Positions 2,534 through 57,455 of a stretch of DNA of 64,000 nucleotides are shown one piece after another. A program made the translations under genes and the position numbers. The notes beneath the pieces were generated by a model, which did not search any database, was not told the origin of the DNA, and saw nothing but the letters and a program-made list of their open reading frames with translations. The number at the start of each line of letters is the position of its first letter. Positions within the stretch are counted from its first letter, which is position 1. Origin of the DNA: Hyperoplus lanceolatus (lineage: Eukaryota; Chordata; Actinopteri; Uranoscopiformes; Ammodytidae); NCBI GenBank assembly GCA_026929865.2, contig CM049418.1, positions 11,821,001-11,885,000 on the forward strand. Direction: 5' to 3'.

Positions 2534-3400
2534 TCAAATTGTAACCCCCCCCCCCCCCCCCCCCCCATCTCTGTCAAAAAAAAGTTTTTGAATGTTACCT
2601 GGTAGCAGTTTGTTTCTTGCTTTGAACATGATTTGTGCAACTTGATATTCAACCAGGTCCTTGAACTTTATGATCCGGGAATGTAAAAACAGGAGGTTGG
2701 TGTGATCATAATATCCAGCTTTATTGATTATTCTTATGGCTCGTTTTTGTATTGTGACTAGCGGTTGCAGTGAGCTTTTGTAAGTGGTCCCCCAGACCTC
2801 CACACAGTAATTTAAATAAGGTAAAGAATATGCAATGATTTTTGATCCAATATATGCTTTGCTTTACACAGGGTCAATCTTAATATTTACGTCATTATTG
2901 AAATTACAATTTCCAAACAACTTGATTTTTGTTTTAGTTAGATTCAATGACAATTTATTATTGTCAAACAACTTTTTTTAATTTGCTCATTTCAGTTGTA
3001 ATTAACTCCAGAAGTTGCTACAAGTCCTCTCCGGTGTTGTCTGCTAATAACACAAATTGTAAAATCTCTGATGTTTTGCATATATCATTGATGTAGAGAA
3101 TAAAAAGAATTTGCCCTAATACTGACCCCTGGGGGACCCCACAGGCAATGTCCAAACAAGATGACATTTGTTCACCCATCTTCACAAACTGTTGACTATT
3201 GTGTAAATAGCTCCTCTGCCAGTTTAATACAACCCCCCTGATACCATAGCGTTGTAATTTATTGATTAATCTGTCATGATTTATGGTATCAAATGCTTTT
3301 TTGAGATCAATAAAAACAGCGGCTGCATAATTGTTTTGGTCCAGGGAAGTTGTTATCTTTTCAATTAGCTCAATGACTGCTAATGAAGCAAGCTGCAGTG
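2534..3400 (-). pseudogene. Non-LTR retrotransposon reverse transcriptase remnant (L2/Rex-like)
   Basis: Read on the minus strand, broken frames give the RT core FIDLKKAFDTINH (~3310), GVPQGSVLG..LFILYINDI (~3130) and a decayed catalytic box, LLADNTG instead of YADDT (~3050). They run on to a C-terminal stretch at 2803-2534 with WGTTYKSSLQPLVTIQKRAI and NLLFLHSRI.KFKDLVEYQ, typical of the RT 3' domain in L2/CR1/Rex elements. A run of about 20 C at 2547-2567 ends the readable frame. The piece is 5'-truncated near 3400, as most LINE copies are. No intact ORF remains, and the change in the catalytic box suggests it is dead. Confidence 0.8.
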
Positions 3401-3488
3401 TGAGCTCAACCTCAAGCTACCATCACACCCCAGCCTCGAAGCACACTAGGGCTGAATGGATTTACTTGATTTTTTGCAATCTGTTAGT

Positions 3489-6330: not shown

Positions 6331-6451
6331 TTTAAGTTCATTAGTTATGTCCTATTAAACCTATATTAACTAACTTGTAACACGATGCTTTAATTACAAC
6401 CTTTATTCCCATTCAAGATCTACCCCTACTCTCACGGCTTCTGCTAGGCGT

Positions 6452-6770
6452 GGTGAAATTGGTTTTATATTCGACATTCGTCTATTTTCCGGGGTTGTAA
6501 CTGTAATAGCGTCACGAAAACCGCACCAATTTCCTCCAGAATGGTATTATTATGTACATAAGACTAAGACTGACATTGCACAGGCTTGATCAACTCACCA
6601 AAATCAGCGAGTCTCGCGAAAGATCAGAGAAACCGCGCCGAATATAGTTTTTAGTGCCACACGGCAGCGGACTGCTTAGGGACCGTCGCAAAAGTGCAAC
6701 GTCTTTTTTCTATTCTTAATAACTCACTGGAAATTCATCCTATCAACACCAAACCACTTCTGTTGTGTTT
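6452..6770. repeat. Left unique terminal inverted repeat of the foldback
   Basis: Complementary to 13905-14198 over ~300 bp with few mismatches, including TTCCTCCAGAATGGTATTAT, CTTGATCAACTCACCAAAAT and GCAGCGGACTGCTTAGGGAC. It contains no tandem unit until ~6716, where the first degenerate unit of the array begins. Confidence 0.85.
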
Positions 6771-7935
6771 ATGAACTCATTTTGTAGTTACCACAACCCT
6801 TTGTTTGAAAGAAAAACCTTTGATTTTTTTTTAAAAGGGAAAATTATTCAGTGTGTATATTGCATCCATATTTAAGGCTATTTTTTTCAATAACTCACTG
6901 TTTTTTATAGTTATCAACACCAAACCAACTCTGGTGTGTTCATGAACTCACTGTGGAGTTCCCACAGCCCTTTATTTTCAAGGAAAAACTTTTAATTTTT
7001 TTAAAGGCAAAAGGAGTCATATATTTAATCCATATTTAAGGCTATTTTTTTCAATAGCTCACTGGTTTTTATAGCTATCAACACCAAACCAACTCTGGTG
7101 TGTTCATGAACTCACTGTGGAGTTCCCACAGCCCTTTATTTTCAAGAAAAAAACTTTTAATTTTTTTTTAAAGGCAAACGGAGTCAGATCATATATTTAA
7201 TCCATATTTAAGGCTATTTTTTTAATAGCTCACTGGTTTTTATAGCTATCAACACCAAACCAACTCTGGTGTGTTCATGAACTCACTGTGGAGTTCCCAC
7301 AACCCTTTGTGTTAAAGAAAAACCTTTGATTTTTTTTTAAAAAGGGAAAAATATTCAGTGTGTATATTGCATCCATATTTAAGGCTATTTTTTCAATAGC
7401 TCACTCGTTTTTATAGTTATCAACACCAAACCAACTCTGGTGTGTTCATGAACTCACTGAGCAGTTCCCACACCCCCTTTATTTTCCAGGAAAAACTTTT
7501 AATTTTTTTTAAAGGCAAAAGGAGTCATATATTTAATCCATATTTAAGGCTATTTTTTTCAATAGCTAACTGGTTTTTATAGCTATCAACACCAAACCAA
7601 CTCTGGTGTGTTCATGAACTCACTGTGGAGTTCCCACAGCCCTTTATTTTCAAGAAAAAAACTTTGATTTTTTTTTAAAAGGCAAACGGAGTCAGATCAT
7701 ATATTTAATCCATATTTAAGGCTATTTTTTCAATAGCTCACTCGTTTTTATAGTTATCAACACCAAACCAACTCTGATGTGTTCATGAACTCACTGTGGA
7801 GTTCCCACAACCCTTTATTTTCAAGGAAAAACTTTAAAAAATGTTTAAAGGCAAAAGGAGTCATATATTTAATCCATATTTAAGGCAATTTTTTCAATAG
7901 CTCACTCGTTTCTATAATTAGCAACACCAAACACT
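6716..7935 (-). repeat. Left tandem array of the foldback (~7 units of ~167 bp)
   Basis: Units are recognised by AACTCACTGTGGAGTTCCCA at about 6950, 7111, 7285, 7455 (variant), 7620 and 7789, preceded by a degenerate copy at ~6776. Each holds TATCAACACCAAACCAACTC, a poly-T/A junction and TTTAATCCATATTTAAGGCT. They are the reverse complement of the units in the right arm. Two unit types alternate irregularly: one with GTGTATATTGCATCC, one with GGAGTCATATATTTAATCC. Confidence 0.9.
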
Positions 7936-7949
7936 CGGTCTATGCCCAG

Positions 7950-8588
7950 GCAAAGGGTCTCCCAGCCAGGGGAGAGTGATGGCTTGACTGGGGTCAGAGG
8001 GAATAAAATGAAAGAGGAATAAAAGAAAGGGGGGGAAAAAAAGGTCAAATATAATGGGGCCGTTTGGAGGAAGCACAGCCCAGTCATAGTGAGTGAAAGA
8101 AGGGAGAAGGCGCCGGTGCTCTGCCTTGGTGAAGGGTCTCCCAGATGGGTAGAGTGGTGGCAGGCCTGGGGTAGGAGGGACAAGGCACTGGGGCCCTGCC
8201 TGGGTGAAGGGTCTCCCAGGCGGGCAGGGGGGGGGGGGGGCTGGGGGGGGGGGGGACAAGGAACTGGGGCCCTGCCTGGGTGCAGGGGCGGGGAGAGTGG
8301 TGGCAGGCCTGGGGTAGGAGGGACAAGGCACTGGGGCCCTGCCTGGGTGAAGGGTCTCCCAGACGGGCAGAGTGGTGGCAGGCCTGGGGTAGGAGGGACA
8401 AGGAACTGGGGCCCTGCCTGGGTGCAGGGTCTCCCAGACGGGGAGAGTGGTGGCAGGCCTGGGGTAGGAGGGACAAGGCACTGGGGCCCTGCCTGGGTGA
8501 AGGGGGGCCCTGCCTAGGTGAAGGGTCTCCCAGACGGGGAGAGTGGTGGCAGGCCTGGGGTAGGAGGGACAAGGCACTGGGGCCCTAA
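7950..8588. repeat. GC-rich minisatellite, 75-bp unit
   Basis: The unit runs GGGTCTCCCAGACGGGGAGA then GTGGTGGCAGGCCTGGGGTA, with copies starting at 7952 (diverged), 8134, 8209, ~8284 (12 bp lost), 8352, 8427 and 8523. Poly-G stretches interrupt it at 8227-8255. The long open frames on both strands arise from repetition of a 75-bp (multiple of 3) unit and are not evidence of genes. It sits in the centre of the otherwise AT-rich foldback. Confidence 0.9.
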
Positions 8589-8649
8589 ATTGCTGCATCA
8601 TGCTTATTATCCAAATTCTGGGATTGGGGTGATTTGTGCCAAAGGGCCT

Positions 8650-9000
8650 GGGTGAGTTATAAGTAAGTAAGTAAGTAAGTAAAATGTATTTATAAAAGCA
8701 CATTTATGACAGTGTGCACCGTCAAAAGTGCTGTACATAGTGCATTCAGTAGGTAAACAATGAAGGTAAAATAACAATAACCAAAATAAAAGACGTAAAG
8801 CCCATACATCCACATAAACACAGATAGTAGTGCAGAGGTAAGATAGTTAATGGGGAGGAAACACCAGTGTGTACAGATGGGTTTTGAGCCTTGATTTAAA
8901 GGCAGAAATGTAGGGGAATCACATTTGTCAGGGGGCAGTTGGTTCCACAAGCATGGAGCAACTAGTGCAAAGTACATTTCTGAGAGTTGTGCCAGTGGCA
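8650..9000 (-). pseudogene. LINE 3' end (Rex/L2-like) inside the foldback
   Basis: On the minus strand the frame 9001-8690 reads ALVAPCLWNQLPPDKCDSPT, resembling the AAPxLWNxLP...FKSxLKTHL motif near the C-terminus of L2/Rex1-type LINE proteins. It is followed by a hydrophobic read-through and a (GTAA)n tail at 8661-8680, which would be the 3' end repeat. Truncated and inactive. Confidence 0.6.
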
Positions 9001-9735
9001 TGGCTGTATACGCTGGTCACCAAAAGAAAGTGATTGTCTACAGTAGCTCAGAAGAGAGTGACATCTCAATTCCACTTAACGACACCACTGACAAGAGTTC
9101 AGATGGCCAGAAAGATGATGATGGTGACTTTGTCATTGTGAGCTTTGCAGGTAAAACCATTAGATCTGCTAGGCCTTGTTTAAGAAAGGTGTCCTTCAAT
9201 TGTTGTCAACTATTTACTTTATTTACTTTAAATACACCTTAAATAAGTGATTGTCTAATGGATTTGTCTTGCATTACAGTTTATGAGATATATATCAATG
9301 GCACAATTCACCCCATGGTATTCTCTCCAACCGCACAACTTACACCACACCGGGGGCAAGTTGTGCATCAAGACAACTTTTTGTCCGAAAGCTATATTTC
9401 CTCAACAGTTTATTCCAGATCCAAAGTTTTTATTGCCAGGGATGCACAACACCCCAAAATATATGTACATCTTTGAGTTGGAGACTTTACTGTCAAGGCC
9501 TTACTTTAAAGTCACTTTGAGTGAAAAGTTGCACAACTTAGGCCACTCTCCCCTATTGTATTTTTCATGAAGTTGAGTTTTAACCTGTAAATATTTTCTT
9601 CTTTTCTTATGACCTGTTGAGATTCCCTTATAAGCTACTTCGAGTTTTTCAACTTCCACTCCTTTCTCTTAATTTTATTGAGTTTTATGATGTATTGTTG
9701 TATATTTTAATGAATGTGTGCAAATAAAATAAAGT
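9001..9735 (+). other. Exon-like gene end in the foldback centre, product unknown
   Basis: An open frame from ATG 9000 encodes an acidic stretch, YSSSEESDISIPLNDTTDKS then DGQKDDDGDFVIVSFAG, followed by a possible donor (GCAG|GTAAAA at ~9151). An acceptor (TTGCATTACAG) ends at 9280, after which the phase-consistent frame continues VYEIYINGTIHPMVFSPTAQ to a stop at 9474-9476. AATAAAATAAA at ~9724 could be the poly(A) signal, just before the right array starts. The acidic DDDxDFVxVxFAGK pattern resembles C-terminal exons of some fish transposon proteins, from recall only. It may be the last remnant of the element's own gene. Confidence 0.3.
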
Positions 9736-9744
9736 CAATTAACA

Positions 9745-12700
9745 CACAATAAGTGGTTTGGTGCTGAAATGTTGAAGTACAAGTGAGTTATTAAAAAATA
9801 AACGCCTTAAGTAGGAATCAAATTTACAAACTGATTACTTATTCCGTTTAAAACTCTTGTAAAGGTTTTTCTGAAAACCAAACGGGTGTGGAAACTGAGC
9901 AATTGAGCTATTAAAAAATAAAAGCCTTCCCTATGAATGCAAAATATGCACTGACTACTGATTCCTTAAAACATTTTTAAAGGTTTTTCTTGAAAAGAAA
10001 GGGTTGTGGGAACTCCACAGTGAGTTCATGAACACACCAGAGTTGGTTTGGTGTTGATAGCTATAAAAACCAGTGAGCTATTGAAAAATAGCCTTAAATA
10101 TGGATGCAATATACACACTGAATATTTTTCCATTTTAAAAAAAAATCAAAGGTTTTTCTTTAAAACAAAGGGTTGTGGGAACTCCACAGTGAGTTCATGA
10201 ACACACCAGAGTTGGTTTGGTGTTGATAGCTATAAAAACCAGTGAGCTATTGAAAAAATAGCCTTAAATATGGATTAAATATATGATCTGACTCCGTTTG
10301 CCTTTAAAAAAAAATTCAAAGTTTTTTTCTTGAAAATTAAGGGCTGTGGGAACTCCACAGTGAGTTCATGAACACACCAGAGTTGGTTTGGTGTTGATAG
10401 CTATAAAAACCAGTGAGCTATTGCAAAAAATAGCCTTAAATATGGATGCAATATACACACTGAATAATTTTCCCTTTTTAAAAAAAAATAAAAGGTTTTT
10501 CTTTAAAACAAAGGGTTGTGGGAACTCCACAGTGAGTTCATGACCACACCAGAGTTGGTTTGGTGTTGCTAACTATAAAAACCAGTGAGCTATTGAAAAA
10601 ATAGCCTTAAATATGGATTAAATATATGACTCCTTTTGCCTTTAAAAAGAATTAAAAGTTTTTCCTTGAAAATAAAGGGTTGTGGGAATTCCACAGTCAG
10701 TTCATGAACACACCAGAGTTGGTTTGGTGTTGCTAACTATAAAAACCAGTGAGCTATTGAAAAAATAGCCTTAAATATGGATTAAATATATGACTCCTTT
10801 TGCCTTTAAAAAAAATTAAAAGTTTTTCCTTGAAAATAAAGGGCTGTGGGAACTCCACATTGAGTCCATGAACACACCAGAGTTGGTTTGGTGTTGATAA
10901 CTATAAAAAAACAGTGAGCTATTGAAAAAATAGCCTTAAATATGGATTAAAAATGTGACTCCTTTTGCCTTTAAAAAAAATTAAACGTTTTTCCTTGAAA
11001 ATAAAGGGCTGTGGGAACTCCACATTGAGTTCATGAACACACCAGAGTCGGTTTGGTGTTGATAACTATAAAAACCAGTGAGCTATTGCAAAAATTAGCC
11101 TTAAATATGGATGCAATATACACACTGAATAATTTTCCCCTTTTTAAAAAAAATCAAAGGTTTTTCTTTAAAACAAAGGGTTGTGGGAACTCCACAGTGA
11201 GTTCATGAACACACCAGAGTTGGTTTGGTCTTGATAGCTATAAAAACCAGTGAGCTATTGAAAAAAAAGCCTTAAATATGGATTAAATATACGACTCCTT
11301 TTGCCTTTAAAAAAAAAAAAAAGTTTTTCCTTGAAAATAAAGGGTTGTGGGAATTCCACAGTCAGTTCATGAACACACCAGAGTTGGTTTGGTGTTGCTA
11401 ACTATAAAAACCAGTGAGCTATTGAAAAAATAGCCTTAAATATGGATTAAATATATGACTCCTTTTGCCTTTAAAAAAAATTAAAAGTTTTTCCTTGAAA
11501 ATAAAGGGCTGTGGGAACTCCACATTGAGTCCATGAACACACCAGAGTTGGTTTGGTGTTGATAACTATAAAAAAACAGTGAGCTATTGAAAAAATAGCC
11601 TTAAATATGGATTAAAAATGTGACTCCTTTTGCCTTTAAAAAAAATTAAACGTTTTTCCTTGAAAATAAAGGGCTGTGGGAACTCCACATTGAGTTCATG
11701 AACACACCAGAGTTGGTTTGGTGTTGATAACTATAAAAACCAGTGAGCTATTGCAAAAATTAGCCTTAAATATGGATGCAATATACACACTGAATAATGT
11801 TCCCCTTTTTAAAAAAAATCAAAGGTTTTTCTTTAAAACAAAGGGTTGTGGGAACTCCACAGTGAGTTCATGAACACACCAGAGTTGGTTTGGTCTTGAT
11901 AGCTATAAAAACCAGTGAGCTATTGAAAAAAAAGCCTTAAATATGGATTAAATATACGACTCCTTTTGCCTTTAAAAAAAAAAAAAAAGTTTTTCCTTGA
12001 AAATAAAGGGTTGTGGGAATTCCACAGTCAGTTCATGAACACACCAAAGTTGGTTTGGTATTGCTAACTATAAAAACCAGTGAGCTATTGAAAAAATAGC
12101 CTTAAATATGGATTAAATATACGACTCCTTTTGCCTTTAAAAAAATTAAAAGTTTTTCCTTGAAAATAAAGGGCTGTGGGAACTCCACAGTGAGTTCATG
12201 AACACACCAGAGTTGGTTTGGTGTTGATAACTATAAAAAACAATGAGCTATTGAAAAAATAGCCTTAAATATGGATGCAATATACACACTGAATAATTTT
12301 CCCTTTTTTAAAAAAAAAACAAAGGTTTTTCTTTAAAACAAAGGGTTGTGGGAACTCCACAGTGAGTCCATGAACACACCAGAGTTGGTTTGGTGTTGAT
12401 AGCTATAAAAACCAGTGAGCTATTGAAAAAATAGCCTTAAATATGGATTAAATATATGATCTGACTCCGTTTGCCTTTAAAAAAAAATTCAAAGTTTTTT
12501 TCTTGAAAATTAAGGGCTGTGGGAACTCCACAGTGAGTTCATGAACACACCAGAGTTGGTTTGGTGTTGATAGCTATAAAAACCAGTGAGCTATTGCAAA
12601 AAATAGCCTTAAATATGGATGCAATATACACACTGAATAATTTTCCCTTTTTAAAAAAAAATAAAAGGTTTTTCTTTAAAACAAAGGGTTGTGGGAACTC

Positions 12701-13925
12701 CACAGTGAGTTCATGACCACACCAGAGTTGGTTTGGTGTTGCTAACTATAAAAACCAGTGAGCTATTGAAAAAATAGCCTTAAATATGGATTAAATATAT
12801 GACTCCTTTTGCCTTTAAAAAGAATTAAAAGTTTTTCCTTGAAAATAAAGGGTTGTGGGAATTCCACAGTCAGTTCATGAACACACCAGAGTTGGTTTGG
12901 TGTTGCTAACTATAAAAACCAGTGAGCTATTGAAAAAATAGCCTTAAATATGGATTAAATATATGACTCCTTTTGCCTTTAAAAAAAATTAAAAGTTTTT
13001 CCTTGAAAATAAAGGGCTGTGGGAACTCCACATTGAGTCCATGAACACACCAGAGTTGGTTTGGTGTTGATAACTATAAAAAAACAGTGAGCTATTGAAA
13101 AAATAGCCTTAAATATGGATAAAAAATGTGACTCCTTTTGCCTTTAAAAAAAATTAAACGTTTTTCCTTGAAAATAAAGGGCTGTGGGAACTCCACATTG
13201 AGTTCATGAACACACCAGAGTTGGTTTGGTGTTGATAACTATAAAAACCAGTGAGCTATTGCAAAAATTAGCCTTAAATATGGATGCAATATACACACTG
13301 AATAATTTTCCCTTTTAAAAAAATAAATAAAAGGTTTTTCTTTAAAACAAAGGGTTGTGGGAACTCCACAGTGAGTTCATGACCACGACAGAGTTGGTTT
13401 GGTGTTGCTAACTATAAAAACCAGTGAGCTATTGAAAAAAAAGCCTTAAATATGGATTAAATATATGACTCCTTTTGCCTTTAAAAAAAAATAAAAGTTT
13501 TTCCTTGAAAATAAAGGGTTGTGGGAATTCCACAGTCAGTTCATGAACACACCAGAGTTGGTTTGGTGTTGCTAACTATAAAAACCAGTGAGCTATTGAA
13601 AAAATAGCCTTAAATATCGATTAAATATATGACTCCTTTTGCCTTTAAAAAAAATTAAACGTTTTTCCTTGAAAATAAAGGGCTGTGGGAACTCCACATT
13701 GAATTCATGAACACACCAGAGTTGGTTTGGTGTTGATAACTATAAAAAACAGTGAGCTATTGAAAGAAATAGCCTTAAATATGGATGCAATTACACACTG
13801 AATAATTTTCCCTTTTTTAAAAAAAATCAAAGGTTTTTCTTTAAAACAAAGGGTTGTGGTAACTACAAAATGTGTTCATAAACACAACAGAATTGGTTTG
13901 GTGTTGATAGGATGAATTTCCAGTG
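9745..13925 (+). repeat. Right tandem array of the foldback (~25 units of ~167 bp)
   Basis: Units are marked by GGGYTGTGGGAACTCCACA at ~10006, 10171, 10343, 10515, 10680 and so on to ~13853, about every 160-173 bp. Each unit carries GAGTTGGTTTGGTGTTGATA, CTATAAAAACCAGTGAGC and GCCTTAAATATGGAT. Two unit types differ after the ATGGAT: one has GCAATATACACACTGAATAA, the other TAAATATATGACTCC. The array shows higher-order duplication: ~660-bp blocks at 10674 and 11338, and an ~880-bp near-identical block at 10249 and 12421. It is far longer than the left array. Confidence 0.93.
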
Positions 13926-14198
13926 AGTTATTAAGAATAGAAAAAAGACGTTGCACTTTTGCGACGGTCCCTAAGCAGTCCGCTGCCGTGTGGCACTAAA
14001 AACTATATTCGGCGCGGTTTCTTTGATCTTTCTCGAGACTCGCTGATTTTGGTGAGTTGATCAAGCCTGTGCAATGTCAGTCTTAGTCTTCTGTACATAA
14101 TAATACCATTCTGGAGGAAATTGGTGCGGTTTTCGTGACGCTATTACAGTTACAACCCCGGAAAATAGACGAATGTCGAATATAAAACCAATCTCACC
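13905..14198. repeat. Right unique terminal inverted repeat of the foldback
   Basis: Mirror of 6452-6770. It begins with GATGAATTTCCAGTGAGTTA and ends CCAATCTCACC. The few differences, such as CTCGAGACTC against GAGTCTCGCG, indicate modest divergence between the two ends. Confidence 0.85.
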
Positions 14199-15115
14199 CC
14201 GGTCTTCTGGCGAGCGTCTCACCCAGGCTCTTGGCGACGAGCTCTCGGGATCTTAACTACTAGACTGCCTGGGATTCTCTTAAATAAATACAAAGTGTTA
14301 TATTTAAACCCACTGTGTTCAGCGTTTCACTTCTTCTAAACCTATTCATCTATATAACGAGGTCTGTTTAGGTACAAAAGGTAACGCTTTATATTTGATT
14401 CAGATAATCATTTACCACTTTTAGGCAGAAGATATCCTTCACAAGTTATTTATTTCAATTTTATGTTTCTCATTGTTTATTAATACCACCTCCATTAAAT
14501 AGAACAGATATACTATTTTCAGCGTTCAACTGCACGCGTGAAACCCGGGAAGTTATTAAAAACAATCCTTTATTCAAAAAAGGGTATATGGTTATGAGGT
14601 TATGTCTAATAATGTTGTCAGCGTGTGTCGGCCGTGTCATGAGTACCAACTTACGTCGGGTCCAAAGGGGCGCTTCACGTCTTGATGTGAAAAAACTCTC
14701 TAACTAGGTCCGTTTTGACTATTTAACTAAATGGTAACAGAGACAAGCAGAACGTTTTACTGGTTTTTATTCAATCACATGATATTAGAGTACATCATAT
14801 ATCAGAATATAGAAAAGACAGAAACAAGATTATATGCCTATTTACTCATCAAAATGGAGTATTTCACACTATCCCCTAGTGGATGTTTTCTTGGTATTTG
14901 TTACAATTTGTCAAAGCACAAGACCAGAGTTATTGCATGCTCTCCGATTTTAAACTTGCGCCTAACCCTATAATAAATGCATCCCTCTGAATCTGTAAAA
15001 ATGGTGAGGACTTAAAGAAAGTTTCCATCAACCTTCGCTAATTCCATCCCCATTCTATCAGACTCCTAGACTAATATCCCCCACCTAAAGTGTTAGAATT
15101 TTACCAAGTCATCCG
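14199..15115. other. No recognisable gene
   Basis: Flanking DNA right of the foldback. A minus-strand AATAAA (CTTTATTC at ~14569) and some GC-richer sequence near 14620-14680 hint at a decayed LTR or gene end, but nothing can be assigned. Confidence 0.35.
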
Positions 15116-15511: not shown

Positions 15512-16540
15512 TCACATATTTATCCATAATACTAAACATAAATAACGAGGAAGCTTCCCGGTCAAGGCTTTGTAAATAAAAATATGCCAATGTGCATCAC
15601 GTCTCTCTTTAAGGGAGTACCACCCAACCTTTTCATATAAAAGACAATGGTGTGTGTCATAAGCATCTCCTGTGATGAACCTTAAAGCAGAGTGAAAAAC
15701 AGAGTCTAGGAGTTTAAGACATGAATGAGATGCATACCGGTAAACCACATCACCGTAATCAAGGACAGACATAAAAACTGCCTCAATAATCCTTTTCCTA
15801 CTAAATAAAGGGAAGGTGGTTTTGTTCCTATAAAAATAGCCAATGTTTTGTCGTAGTCGACAAACAAGATTTTTTATATGGAAATTAAAAGTGAGTTTAT
15901 CATCTAACCAGATGCCGAGATATTTGTACTCTGTGACTCTTTCAATTAAAAATCCATTCTTTGTAAAAAATATTAAAATCATTAAAAGTTGTAGTTCTTG
16001 CTCTGGAGAAACACATATATTTGGTTTTGTCTGTATTTAGAACCAGCATGCAGGGTGTTAAAAGAGCTTTGTAGGTTCTGAATAGATTGGTGCACCGAAT
16101 CGGAAATGCAATACAGTACTGTGTCGTCAGCGTATAGATGGGCGTGACAGTTTTTTAACGATGAAACAATGTTATTTATATAAATTGTGAAAAGAACTGG
16201 ACCTAAAATTGAGCCCTGTGGGACACCATTTGTAACAGTTAAGAACTCAGATTGGTATCTTCCGAGTTTAACTGACTGCTGTCTATCAGAGAGATAATCC
16301 CTAAACCAGCTACATGCAGACTGATCAAAGCCAATGTCATGCAGCCTCTGTAAAAGCAAATGGTGGTCAACAGTATCAAAGGCCTTTGAAAGATCAATAA
16401 AAAGTGCTGCACAGTGCTTTTTCTTTCCTAATGCTGTAACAATGTTGTCTACAACCAAAGTCACAGCAGAGACAGTACTGTGGCCTGCCCTAAAGCCAGA
16501 TTGGAATGGGCTCAACATGGAAGCACTAGTTAGAAATGTT
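15512..16540 (-). pseudogene. Non-LTR retrotransposon RT domain and C-terminus (L2/Rex-like)
   Basis: The minus-strand frame 16518-15982 gives RT blocks in order: SPFQSGFRAGHSTVSAVTLV, ALFIDLSKAFDTVDHHLLLQ, GVPQGSILGPVLFTIYINNI and the catalytic HLYADDTVLY. The next frame (15982-15512) continues with EYKYLGIWLDDKLTFNFHI, VFMSVLDYGDVVYRYAS and KALTGKLPRYLCL before a stop. Passing from one frame to the other needs a deletion or frameshift near 16040. The N-terminal endonuclease is absent, so the copy is 5'-truncated at ~16540. Catalytic YADD is intact but the copy cannot move by itself. Confidence 0.88.
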
Positions 16541-16689
16541 TCAACACAGATGTTACTTATTCATTACAATCATTCAGATCTTACCAGAATTAACCTACTC
16601 TCAACCGAACTTTGAAAAGGGGAGCCCTGCCCCACAACCATGACATCTTGTTCCTCGGGCGGAAACAGCGCGCCTAGTGCCAAGCACTA

Positions 16690-32294: not shown

Positions 32295-33963
32295 CTACAC
32301 TATGGTGTCTTGCCAAGACAAAGCCCCCTCTGCTGAGAAGTGGGCAGTGAAGACCTCCCTCACCCTGACAGCCTCTCGTCCCGGGTTGTTGGCGGCAACT
32401 CTGCCCAGGTCTGGCAGTGGCTCCACCTCCACAACTGGGACGTTCCCCCTCACTGCACAAGCCTCCTCTGACCTCCGCAGGAAGTTGTGCAGGACGCAGG
32501 TTGCCTTGACGCACATCTCTGCTACCTCTGGCTTGACCTCCATCGCACGCCTGTACATCCTCCATTGTGAGGAGAGGATCCCGAAGGCATTTTCAACTAC
32601 CAGTCGAGCTCGGGAGAGACGGTAGTTGAAAATCCTCTTCTCACGAGGGAGGATGCGCCCAGGGTATGGCCTCATGAGGTTTTTCCGCAATGGAAAAGCC
32701 TCATCGGCCACAAACACATGCGGCTGGGGTCCCCTCTGGTCAGCTCCAGGAAGTAGCAGGTCAGTGGGCAGGTCGAGGGTTCCAGACTGCAGGGCTTGAC
32801 CAAACGCAGAATTGGCCAGTGTCCCGCCGTCACTGGATCTCCCGTACCCGCCAACGTCAATCACCCGGAAGCAACGCTGGGCATCCACAATTGCTAGCAA
32901 TACAAGGGAGTATGTCCCCTTGTAATTGAAGAACTGGGACCCAGTATTGCCAGGGGCTTTGAGGGTCACATGCTTCCCATCCAGTGCTCCACAGCAGAGT
33001 GGGAAGTTCCAGCGCTCCTCAAACACTGCCGCGATGGACCTCCAATCCTCTGCTGTGGGCACTGCCATAAACTCCCCCCACCAGGCACTCCCAAATGGCA
33101 GTGGCCACAGCAGGGACGATGACGCTGACAGTGGAGACCCCAACACGGAAGCTGTTGGCGATGGTCCTGTAGGAATCCCCTGTGGCAAAGTACCTGCAAC
33201 ACAGACAACAGTTAATATAGGCTAACTGAGTTATTATGTCAAGGTCTATACTAGTTTGTGCTGTTATTGGTGGTAGCATTTTATGTATATGGCTCTAAAG
33301 TCAGAGTAATCAATAATAGATAATAGGCTATAATAAAAGTATGTAGGCCTTTCTGTTTGTAAAAAAAAAGATAATATAGCTGCCACATTTATGTAGGCTA
33401 TGGTTTGTAGCCTACTGTGTTGTTTTGTTTTGACCGCTGTTGGAGCAGCTGTAAACTCAGAACATCAGCTCTTTCCAACTGTTGTTGTCCAACTGTTTTC
33501 CAACTACCAAAAATTATGTTGCCTAGCTATTTCAGTGTAGGCTACTTTTGATACATTTGTTGTTGTGAGATCACAGTGAAATTTCCGTTTTGGTACCAGT
33601 CAGAGAGATTACTATAAATGTTGGTTACAGTTACTATTGATACATTTTAACATTTGTTAGTAAACTCACTTACCGGAGACAGATAGACAGGCGCTCCGCA
33701 GCTGGGACGGAACGCCTGTAGTTGGTATCCTGCCGGGAAATCCTGTCACCGATCCGGGCCAACAGGTCGTCAAATTGGGCCACAGTCAACCGGAGGTAGC
33801 GCTGGAAACGACAGTCATCCAGGCGCAGCTCCTGAATCAACCGGTGATATTCACCCAGCTGGTTCCGACTGCGGGTGATGCTGTGAACCCAGATACGGCG
33901 GCGGTGGGTGCGACGCTTCTTCCAGAGAAGATATAAACACGCCAGGGTGTTAACACTAACCAT
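32295..33963 (-). CDS. PIF/Harbinger DDE transposase of element 1 (2 exons)
   Basis: HARBI1-like transposase, DDE_Tnp_4 fold. Exon 1 is 33963-33674 (MVSVNTLACLYLLWKKRRTH start), donor CCG|GTAAGT. Exon 2 is 33193-32295, acceptor TTGCAG. Splicing restores RYFATGDSYRTIANSFRVG, a helix-turn-helix. Catalytic motifs: first Asp in CGALDGKHV, second Asp in DVGGYGRSSDGGTLA, Glu in RLVVENAFGILSSQWR. ATCVLHNFLR near the C-terminus is also typical. One frame break lies in a six-base G/C run at 33074-33079; one base fewer restores the frame. Total length would be ~395 aa, normal for the family. Otherwise the gene looks complete and recently active. Confidence 0.88.
33194..33673 (-). other. Transposase intron with an internal duplicated phrase
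   Basis: The intron contains CTCTTTCCAACTGTTGTTGT, CCAACTGTTTTCCAACTACC, which recurs at 34021-34065 upstream of the transposase start. No other feature is seen. Confidence 0.6.
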
Positions 33964-53445: not shown

Positions 53446-53772
53446 TAATGCCTCGTTTCCACCGAGTAGAGCGGGTCGGATCGGAGCGGTTCGGTCCGGG
53501 TAGTTTGGCTTTTCATTTGCCAAAAGTTGGGTAGGGTACGGTTTAAGCGCACCTAACCGCTCTGAGCCGCTCCCGATCTCAGTACTCCTCCGTAGGGGTA
53601 CTGGCCGCCTGAAAGCGGTCCGAAAATTCATGAGAAGGCGGCGCTACACACTGCCGCCATTTGATTGGTCGGCAGAATCGTCACTTCCGCGCGACAGGGG
53701 GATTTAAAACAAACAAACACAGTACCTGCGATTCATTTCTGGACAACAGCGTAAGCTTATTTTCTTGTAAAA

Positions 53773-55065
53773 ATGGCGCGCAGAATTTTGCCCTGGACAA
53801 ACGCTGAGACGGAGACTTTCCTCTGTATCCTTGGGGAGGAAGAGGTACAGAGGGAGCTGGATGGAGCTGTGAGGAACGAAAGGGTCTTCCAGCTGGTGTC
53901 GGAAAAGATGGTGGCTGCTGGTCACCCGAAGACCACTGAGCAGTGTCGAACAAAATCTAAGAAGCTTCGGGCCGAGTACCGAAAGGTTAAAGACCACAAC
54001 AATCGAAGTGGCGTCAGCAGGAAGACGTGGAGGTGGTACGACACGATGGACGCCATCTACGGTCACCGACCGGCAAGCCGAGGAAGAGAGGGGGGATCGA
54101 CACGGCCACCTCTCTGCTGGAGTCCTTGTTGGAGCCTAACGGTAAGATTTGCCAGGATTGTAGCTATTGTGAGCGTTTTGCTATACTGTTAAGTAACTTA
54201 AATAATTGATAAATAAGCATATTAAGAGACTGGGATGTGCTGCGTTGGGTTGCTGGCCGGTTAGCTAGCCGGTTAGCTAGCAACCCTTTGTTTGGAAGCT
54301 AACGTTAAGTAGCACGCTTCTAGTTTTACTGGTCACCAATTCGGTGACTCAAATATTTCTTTAAAGTCAATGTTGGTCCGTAAACTATTGTTTAGTTGTC
54401 GTGACTAAAACGTAATTTGTGTAACTTTCAGGCGAGGCCCGTTGCTCACAGGACCAGTCGACCCTGTTCGATTCCGAACCCATGGCGACTCCGGAGTGTG
54501 CAACCCCAACACGATGCCCCCCCTTCACGGACATCAACGCCAGCACCAGTGGAGCCTGCTGCCCCAAGCAGTAGGAACACCACTCCACGGCCTTTTGTCT
54601 TTGGTAAGTCCTAAAAAATCACCTGACAACACAGCATTGTTGCTTCTAAATTACGTTCTTTCACTGCTGGATATGATGAAAGTAGAGCTACATTTAACCA
54701 GACCTTTTAAATTCTGCATTATGTGTACCTGCATATGAGTTATTGAGAAGTTGATTAAAAACAATGTGTCTAACATCTGATATTCCTCTCTATTTTGCAT
54801 TACAGACAAAAGGAGAAGGGGCAATGAGGTTGCTGAGGCAATAAGGGAGCTCAAGGCATCCGATGAGAGGACGCTGGAGAGGTTAGAGGCGCGGCAGGAC
54901 GAGCGCCACCAGGTAGATCGGGAGGATGCCCGGATTGCTAGACAGGAAGCGACGGAGGTGGCAAGGGTACAAATGGAGAACCTTGCCGCTTTCAACGCCG
55001 CCTTCCTCCAGACATTTAGTGCGATGGTACAGGTGATGGGTGGACGTCGTGACCCTGTGCCGTGA
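53773..55065 (+). CDS. Myb/SANT-like DNA-binding protein of Harbinger 2 (3 exons)
   Basis: Expected DNA-binding partner of the transposase. Exon 1 runs from ATG 53773 to ~54141 (donor AACG|GTAAGA) and encodes a trihelix Myb/SANT-like domain: WTNAETETFLCILGEEEVQR, VSEKMVAAGHPKTTEQCRTK, SKKLRAEYRKVKDHN, ending KTWRWYDTMDAIYG. Exon 2 is ~54432-54602 (Pro/Thr-rich linker), donor TTTG|GTAAGT. Exon 3 is 54806-55065, a charged helix: REL.ASDERTLERLEARQDE, then RQEATEVARVQMENLAAFNA, likely a coiled coil, stop TGA. Single-base frame breaks are inferred near 54070 (CCGGC) and in the C-run at ~54514. All three exons join in phase 1. Minisatellite and AATAAA (~55457) follow. Confidence 0.8.
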
Positions 55066-56347: not shown

Positions 56348-57455
56348 TCAAATGTTCACATAGCGCATTAAAGCCTCTCGGACATCCCTGCCCTCCTCTT
56401 CTGCACCCTGTGCAAGTGGCGCCAGAGGCTCTGCTGCCACAGCTGCTTCTACCGGTATGTCCCATTCAGTCTGATAGTTCTCTGCATGACTTTCACAGAG
56501 ATTGTGGAGGGCACAACAAGTCACCACCATTGCCTTTGTCAGTTCGACGCTGCTGTCATTCCTTTTCATAAGGCAACGCCACCTCCCCTTAAGTCTTCCA
56601 AAGGCATTCTCTACCACCACACGTGCCCTGCAGACTTTCTTGTTGTACAGCTGTTGTTCTGTAGTAAGCCGGCCATTGTCAGGGAATGGTTTGAGGAGCC
56701 AGTTCTGTAAAGGATAGGCAGAGTCTCCCAGAATGTAATGACCAGCATTCACCCCTGCAATGTTCCTGGTGCAGGCTGGAAAAAGTCTTCCATGCTCAAC
56801 TAATTCCCAAAGTGTGGAGGATCTCAAAACGCGAGCGTCATGATAACTCCCAGCCATTCCTACAAACGCGCTCCAAAACAGTCCTTTCCCATCCACAACT
56901 CCTTGAAGGATGATGGAATGCCAGCCTTTTCGGTTGAAATAGTCACAGTGGTACTCCTGTGGGGCTATAATAGGTATGTGACACCCATCAATGGAACCGA
57001 CACACTGTGGAAGGCCCCACCTCTGCTCAATGTAGGCTGCCATGTCTTTGAGTTTCTCCTGGTCAGGAAAACATATCTGGTCTGGAGCCAACACCTTGCA
57101 GGCAGCATCACAGAACTCTTGCACACATCGACAAACTGTTGTTTTGCTCACGCCGAAAAGATGACCTATGCTCCTGTATTCGTTGTTGGTGGCCAGCTTC
57201 CACAGTGCGATGGCAACTCTTTTTTTTCAGGGAAACACACCGTCGATAGTTTGTGTCCTGCTTCTGTAGCGCTGGACGCATCATGTTGCAAAGGTGCAGG
57301 AATGTTCCTTCTGACATCCTGAAGTTCTGCACCCACTGTGTGTGTGTGAATCCTGGAACGATCACATCCCACCATTCGCTGGCTCTGCTGAAAGCCCAAA
57401 CTGTTGGCCTGCAGCGTCGTCTGTGCAACAGCTGAATTATCTGAAAGACAAACAT
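56348..57455 (-). CDS. PIF/Harbinger DDE transposase of element 2
   Basis: HARBI1-like protein. It reads from 57455 (an exon starting IIQLLHRRRCRPTVWAF after a CTTTCAG acceptor, or ATG 57455) to TGA at 56348. An N-terminal region with QNFRMSEGTFLHLC and QDTNYRRCVSL is followed, after one frame break in an eight-base A/T run at 57220-57227, by a helix-turn-helix (NNEYRSIGHLFGVSKTTVCR). Catalytic motifs: Asp in GSIDGCHIPI, Asp in GMAGSYHDARVL, Glu in ARVVVENAFGRLKGRWRCL; TCCALHNLCE follows. The acidic tail ends MRYVNI. About 370 aa, family length. The poly-T frame break is the only defect, possibly a sequencing error. 55500-56340 between the genes shows nothing else. Confidence 0.88.

Follow-up and report, generated by a model that had tools for sequence, protein, structure and literature searches.

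A probable non-autonomous foldback transposon with tandem-array arms in Hyperoplus lanceolatus, and a candidate coding relative

The element at positions 6447-14203 of the window (the whole 64,000-nucleotide stretch of DNA analysed here, on C24) is very likely a non-autonomous foldback DNA transposon of 7,757 bp, which would depend for its movement on a cut-and-paste transposase supplied in trans, of the kind encoded by a longer copy on C19, and which is most like Rehavkus (MULE-related). A preliminary description had already proposed a foldback transposon, and this was borne out: termini and arrays recur together, 9-bp target-site duplications (TSDs) border them and empty sites were found. 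The further copies with conserved termini that it had advised looking for exist genome-wide (96 ends, 34 convergent pairs), and its reading of the element as non-autonomous agrees with the finding of no transposase frame in the window copy and of an intact long candidate frame in the C19 copy, a candidate autonomous relative with the same termini.

Structure and genomic copies of the element

The borders were refined by comparing copies, which placed the outermost bases at GGCG... (6447) and ...CCGGT (14203). The element is capped at both ends by ~293-bp unique inverted termini, the inverted arms (6449-6843 and 13807-14201) being 97% complementary, and two inward arrays with unit cores spaced 163-173 bp apart enclose a centre of 2.04 kb that includes a 75-bp minisatellite (Table 1). 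The layout first described was thus real in its termini, inward arrays and unit length; its estimate of ~7 units on the left stands, that of ~25 on the right is slightly off, and its 1.8-kb centre was too short. Sequence comparison of the terminus with the array unit gave short chance matches and no further similarity.

Table 1. Features of the window element and its target-site duplications (positions in the window)
Feature	Positions	Strand	Remarks
Left target-site duplication	6438-6446		CTTCTGCTA; equals empty site except last base
Left unique terminus	6447-6739	+	Begins GGCGTGGTGAAATTGG; from inverted-arm match and copy comparison
Left inward array	6740-7932	+	7 unit cores, spacing 164-171 bp
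Non-array segment, 49% G+C	7933-8100	+	Part resembles a host intron/exon boundary, reverse strand (by eye)
75-bp minisatellite, 71% G+C	8101-8586	+	
Centre common to the C19 20.4-kb copy and others	8587-9740	+	Possible two-exon frame (by eye)
Diverged units, inner edge of right array	9741-9976	-	
Right inward array	9977-13909	-	24 unit cores
Right unique terminus	13910-14203	-	From outside: ACCGGGGTGAGATTGG
Right target-site duplication	14204-14212		CTTCTGGCG; positions 6-8 GGC, GCT in empty site

The whole genome (807 Mb in 527 contigs, about 24 of them chromosome-sized) was searched with the terminal 35-mer at up to 3 mismatches, with the reversed 35-mer as a control. There were 96 matches (77 exact) against none for the control, and the unit core gave 823 matches against none; chance repeats were rejected on these counts. 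Sixty-eight of the ends form the 34 convergent pairs, with distances of about 0.6 to 20.4 kb between partners, and at the search stringency the other 28 had no partner. Flanks were read for 86 of the 96 ends (L-numbers below are locus labels of copies or ends), and 31 of the 34 pairs had both ends readable, the others having a truncated left end (C7:20.68 and C1:1.26) or unsequenced flank (C11:0.75). The two truncated left ends and the unpaired ends weigh against the favoured reading.

In all 28 whole copies long inverted arms of tandem repeats surround a variable centre, which is the class feature of foldback elements, and the units, which face inward at either end, change orientation no more than once along a copy. 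The small copies L022 and L046 contain two units each, in a single orientation, and arm length across copies ranges from none to 31 units. At C2:19333179 and C2:1951488 (L027 and L025) several kb without detected units lie between the end and the resumed array, perhaps as nested insertions.

The preliminary description had foreseen that the inverted arms might be an assembly join of two loci; this, or a segmental inverted duplication with no transposon, is scarcely credible. Long inverted arrays are hard to assemble, and the length given for an array at any one locus may be in error, but the like architecture was found at 28 of 28 loci with locus-specific TSDs and contiguous empty sites. The 96 ends (control 0), the convergent pairs, the TSDs and the empty site of the window copy argue for a real transposon.

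Termini differ by about 1% on average among 16 copies chosen as young, and older copies differ more; the low figure points to a recent spread of the family, as judged from sequence. Copies outside this set lie 0.7-4.5% from the C19 copy, apart from four arms at 21-38% (L044 right; L052, L055 and L046 left), which are taken to be truncated or rearranged. Ends beginning AGCGGGGTG (L073, L077 and L080, and also L079) share an identical or near-identical flank, CTCGCACTA, and may represent a single dispersed unit or else a subfamily of greater age.

Within the centre of the window copy, 8587-9740 matches the C19 copy at 97% over 1,049 bp. Stretches similar to the 7933-8100 region occur outside the family at C15:16994459 (90%, 88 bp) and C4:20879452 (96%, 103 bp), and an array at C360:25013-26338 is related to the 75-bp minisatellite (76-80%). 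Because parts of 7933-8586 match non-family loci and have an edge that looks, by eye, like an intron/exon boundary, this suggests captured host DNA, possibly a captured gene fragment; the centre would have lost its coding region and gained host-like DNA. An insert of ~375 bp, with an 8-bp overlap at its edges, is found at one place in the centre of 9 of the 28 copies examined, as expected if copies descend from one another by transposition.

Other mobile-element sequences were seen in the window. Fragments of RVT_1 reverse transcriptase flank the element on the minus strand (3021-3416 and 15985-16560), and two transposase frames with DDE_Tnp_4, also on the minus strand (32298-33221 and 56351-57226), are presumably of PIF/Harbinger type; a Myb/SANT-like frame lies at 53755-54189.

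Target sites and the GGC change

Among the 31 pairs, the 9 bp flanking the two ends agree at 9/9 positions in 11, 8/9 in 4, 7/9 in 6 and 6/9 in 6, and the last four agree at 4, 3, 3 and 1 of 9. Agreement at at least 6/9 bases was thus seen in 27 of the 31 testable pairs, permuted pairs never reached 8 or more, and mean agreement was 0.79 compared with 0.24-0.28 in offset controls. The pairs at C8:0.78 and C17:11.8 have no shared TSD, and the flanking bases of L015 and L061 suggest duplications of 10 and 8 bp that fall out of register in a 9-bp comparison. Where an insertion lies within another repeat, paralogues of that repeat can supply the empty site, and such sites were found for 9 insertions including the window copy (paralogue at C22:17111548, reading CTTCTGCTG); for common repeats, few of the listed paralogues were used.

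Beyond the TSD of the same 31 pairs, G stands fourth after it in 18 and T fifth in 15, and on the other side C stands fourth before it in 16 and third in 17, with A fifth in 12. Binomial p values at 0.25 for these five positions run from about 1e-4 to 0.06, uncorrected, and G as the third base after it, seen in 11 of 31, gives p 0.13. Counts over 80 ends go in the same direction but are not wholly independent, as 3 of 40 left ends share the flank CTCGCACTA. The base counts hint at a moderate palindromic target preference.

The triplet GGC was found at positions 6-8 of the right flank in 16 of 40 ends, and at the corresponding positions of the left duplication in 1 of 40. Thirteen of the 31 pairs have it on the right only (the window copy, L009, L015, L021, L024, L026, L048, L049, L051, L055, L056, L059 and L065), and one more, L023, has it on both sides; L065 (C17:11.8) has flanks mismatched to each other and L015 is one of the two pairs that look out of register. 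In the window the triplet lies at 14209-14211.

In 7 of 7 such insertions with empty sites, positions 6-8 of the left copy are those of the empty site, while the right copy has GGC there (sites used: window copy 1, L009 3, L024 6, L049 4, L026 4, L056 3 and L059 3 of 4, the fourth, L115, being left out for poor alignment). Since the empty sites match the left copy at these positions, the alignments show the left duplication to be the original in these seven insertions, and the right the altered copy. One base is altered in L056 and L059, two in the window copy, L009, L024 and L026, and three in L049; the change in L056 is possibly a plain mutation. The left side is altered in L044, which has GCC at positions 2-4 as a mirror image (4 empty sites), and in L012 (C11:16.4), at positions 3-4 (3 empty sites). 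Extra differences from the empty site occur at position 9 in L059, at the base after the TSD in L024 and at the base before it in L044. A reading of the mismatched TSDs as a 5-bp TSD with 4 filler bases was rejected, the empty sites showing the opposite side to be altered.

Supposing that filling of the 9-nt gaps starts at the outside and moves inwards, the bases gained in L044 and in the seven insertions altered on the right are GCC, at nucleotides 2-4 of the strand so made. The element has tips of 5'-GGC on the left and 5'-ACC on the right, and the GGC could come from the left tip, copied as the gap was filled, or from carry-over of a donor-flank flap; the left change in L012 does not fit a tip-copy rule. 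It is also possible that the GGC arises by change after insertion. We put forward tentatively, and as somewhat more probably wrong than right, the combined proposal that insertion rewrites three bases of one TSD to GGC (nucleotides 2-4 when a 9-nt gap is filled), perhaps with the 5'-GGC tip of the element itself as template, and that the element is also the first autonomous foldback or Rehavkus-type element from a vertebrate. If this were true, a transposon would leave a self-templated signature in host DNA, and a GGC change made by insertion would be an unexplained DNA-repair step with a clear test. The literature matches listed include nothing on a GGC change of this sort and no vertebrate Rehavkus or foldback element.

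Array growth and the coding relative on C19

Nearest neighbours were determined for 466 units from 21 copies, with ties shared. The nearest unit lay in the unit's own arm and copy for 128 (16 expected), in the equivalent arm of another copy for 303 (231 expected) and in the other arm of its own copy for 7.6 (10 expected), so that about 431 of the 466 fell in the same arm overall compared with about 247 expected. The terminus-adjacent unit differs between copies by 4-5%, against 13% overall. On account of this same-arm excess and the low divergence of the terminus-adjacent unit, the arrays seem to lengthen through local, tandem duplications confined to one arm and then to be inherited with that arm; within-arm duplicates would travel with the element. 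Homogenisation of the arms by gene conversion was rejected, as the mean left-right distance in the 16 young copies was 1.30% within a copy and 1.34% between copies.

The suggestion that the element could seed satellite DNA is so far without support: 495 of the 823 unit cores lie inside the 28 examined elements (the other 328 are unplaced), and no free satellite array was seen among the 100 listed matches of the 823, none of which is more than about 14 kb from an element end. What the arrays do seem to show is satellite-like repeats growing inside a mobile element.

The C19 copy (C19:8441734-8462201) is 20.4 kb long, shares the termini and the arrays, here of 31 and 18 unit cores, has a perfect 9-bp TSD and contains an intact frame of 1,193 codons, stop to stop, which we infer to be a candidate transposase. 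Its N-terminal half includes a coding minisatellite (L019:2663-3916, a 30-bp unit x 40.6). The LDATG and the second D of a DDE-like motif are common to three diverged loci in the same genome and the C..H to two of the three, while the E (VENWF) was assigned by eye only. No Pfam or NCBIfam model reached its cut-off against the frame (best weak matches E 0.43 and 0.96), no MULE transposase domain was found in the whole frame at E up to 1, and the last 626 residues matched PF21672 alone (E 0.43, below cut-off); the three PDB matches are all in the minisatellite-encoded part.

Downstream of the frame, in separate sequence, lie Ulp1-like exons (hand-joined, with splicing by eye; PF02902, E 0.0018, 18.6 bits, below the 20.7 cut-off) and one half of a PHD finger (PF00628, E 1.9e-7, above cut-off). 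The Ulp1-like piece had one PDB match, ULP1, at E 0.21. This is the one intact coding copy; the next closest, at C11:31.80 Mb, is broken up, with stops in several of the pieces, which match the C19 frame at best at 67% over 233 residues (others 43-84%). The remaining relatives of the frame are distant (25-33%), and of 27 pattern matches to viral relatives none was confirmed. Under the favoured reading a C19-type frame would be the active transposase, with the termini, and perhaps the arrays too, as its binding sites.

A Galileo-like foldback element of the P superfamily is a very improbable alternative. Galileo, from Drosophila, shares long, internally repetitive arms in the source text available, but P and Galileo elements have TSDs of 7-8 bp, against 9 bp here, and neither a THAP domain, which Galileo has, nor a P-element profile was among the profile matches of the C19 frame.

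Comparison with Rehavkus and other foldback systems

In the available text of a 2019 survey, Rehavkus has a 9-bp TSD, terminal inverted repeats (TIRs) of 26-400 bp, a PHD finger and a minisatellite in its C-terminal part; its hosts there are arthropods and annelids only, and vertebrate MULE reports are considered probably misidentified (PMC6446971). Rehavkus-1_TC from Tribolium is given, in the portion of its paper available, as 9.5 kb long with termini bearing 164-bp tandem arrays, mostly of 5 and 8 monomers (PMC10218199). The present family likewise has a 9-bp target duplication, a unique TIR within the 26-400-bp range and arrays of 163-173 bp, close to that 164-bp unit. The minisatellite is in the N-terminal half of the C19 frame, in contrast to the C-terminal position in Rehavkus (PMC6446971), and the PHD finger is in separate sequence rather than in the long frame. 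Unlike Rehavkus-1_TC, the family has a fish host, a 20.4-kb coding copy and Ulp1-like exons. It is Rehavkus that the family most resembles, in features rather than in compared proteins. Beside the earlier remark that no named fish family is known with this unit can be set this named insect element of like architecture, Rehavkus-1_TC, with its 164-bp unit.

A MULE lineage such as Phantom/FB-NOF, in which the arrays and minisatellite would be convergent, is a possible but doubtful placing. The available text on FB4/FB-NOF of Drosophila gives inverted arms of ~700 bp and a 9-10-bp TSD and calls the FB4 transposase unknown (PMC8277862); that on Tetris of Drosophila virilis gives a foldback element with an 8-10-bp TSD and 220-bp tandem arm repeats, a proposed satellite seed (PMC4079207). 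The two elements thus share TSDs of 8-10 bp and long arms that carry repeats, those who described them favour a Mutator affinity (PMC4079207, PMC8277862), and the C19 frame has DDE-like motifs, named by eye. Against this, its Pfam matches include no MULE transposase profile, and the PHD finger, minisatellite and ~164-bp terminal arrays better fit Rehavkus, which we continue to favour.

The window element is like FB4/FB-NOF in its long inverted arms and 9-bp TSD, a likeness of description rather than of compared sequence. It is unlike Tetris in unit length, in the absence of a free satellite among the matches listed and in having a candidate autonomous copy, where the Tetris text available reports none found. 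Foldback elements have rarely been tied to a coding partner, and FB4 and Tetris are without one in these sources (PMC8277862, PMC4079207); here a young family and an intact candidate occur in one fish genome, so that the enzyme can be tested.
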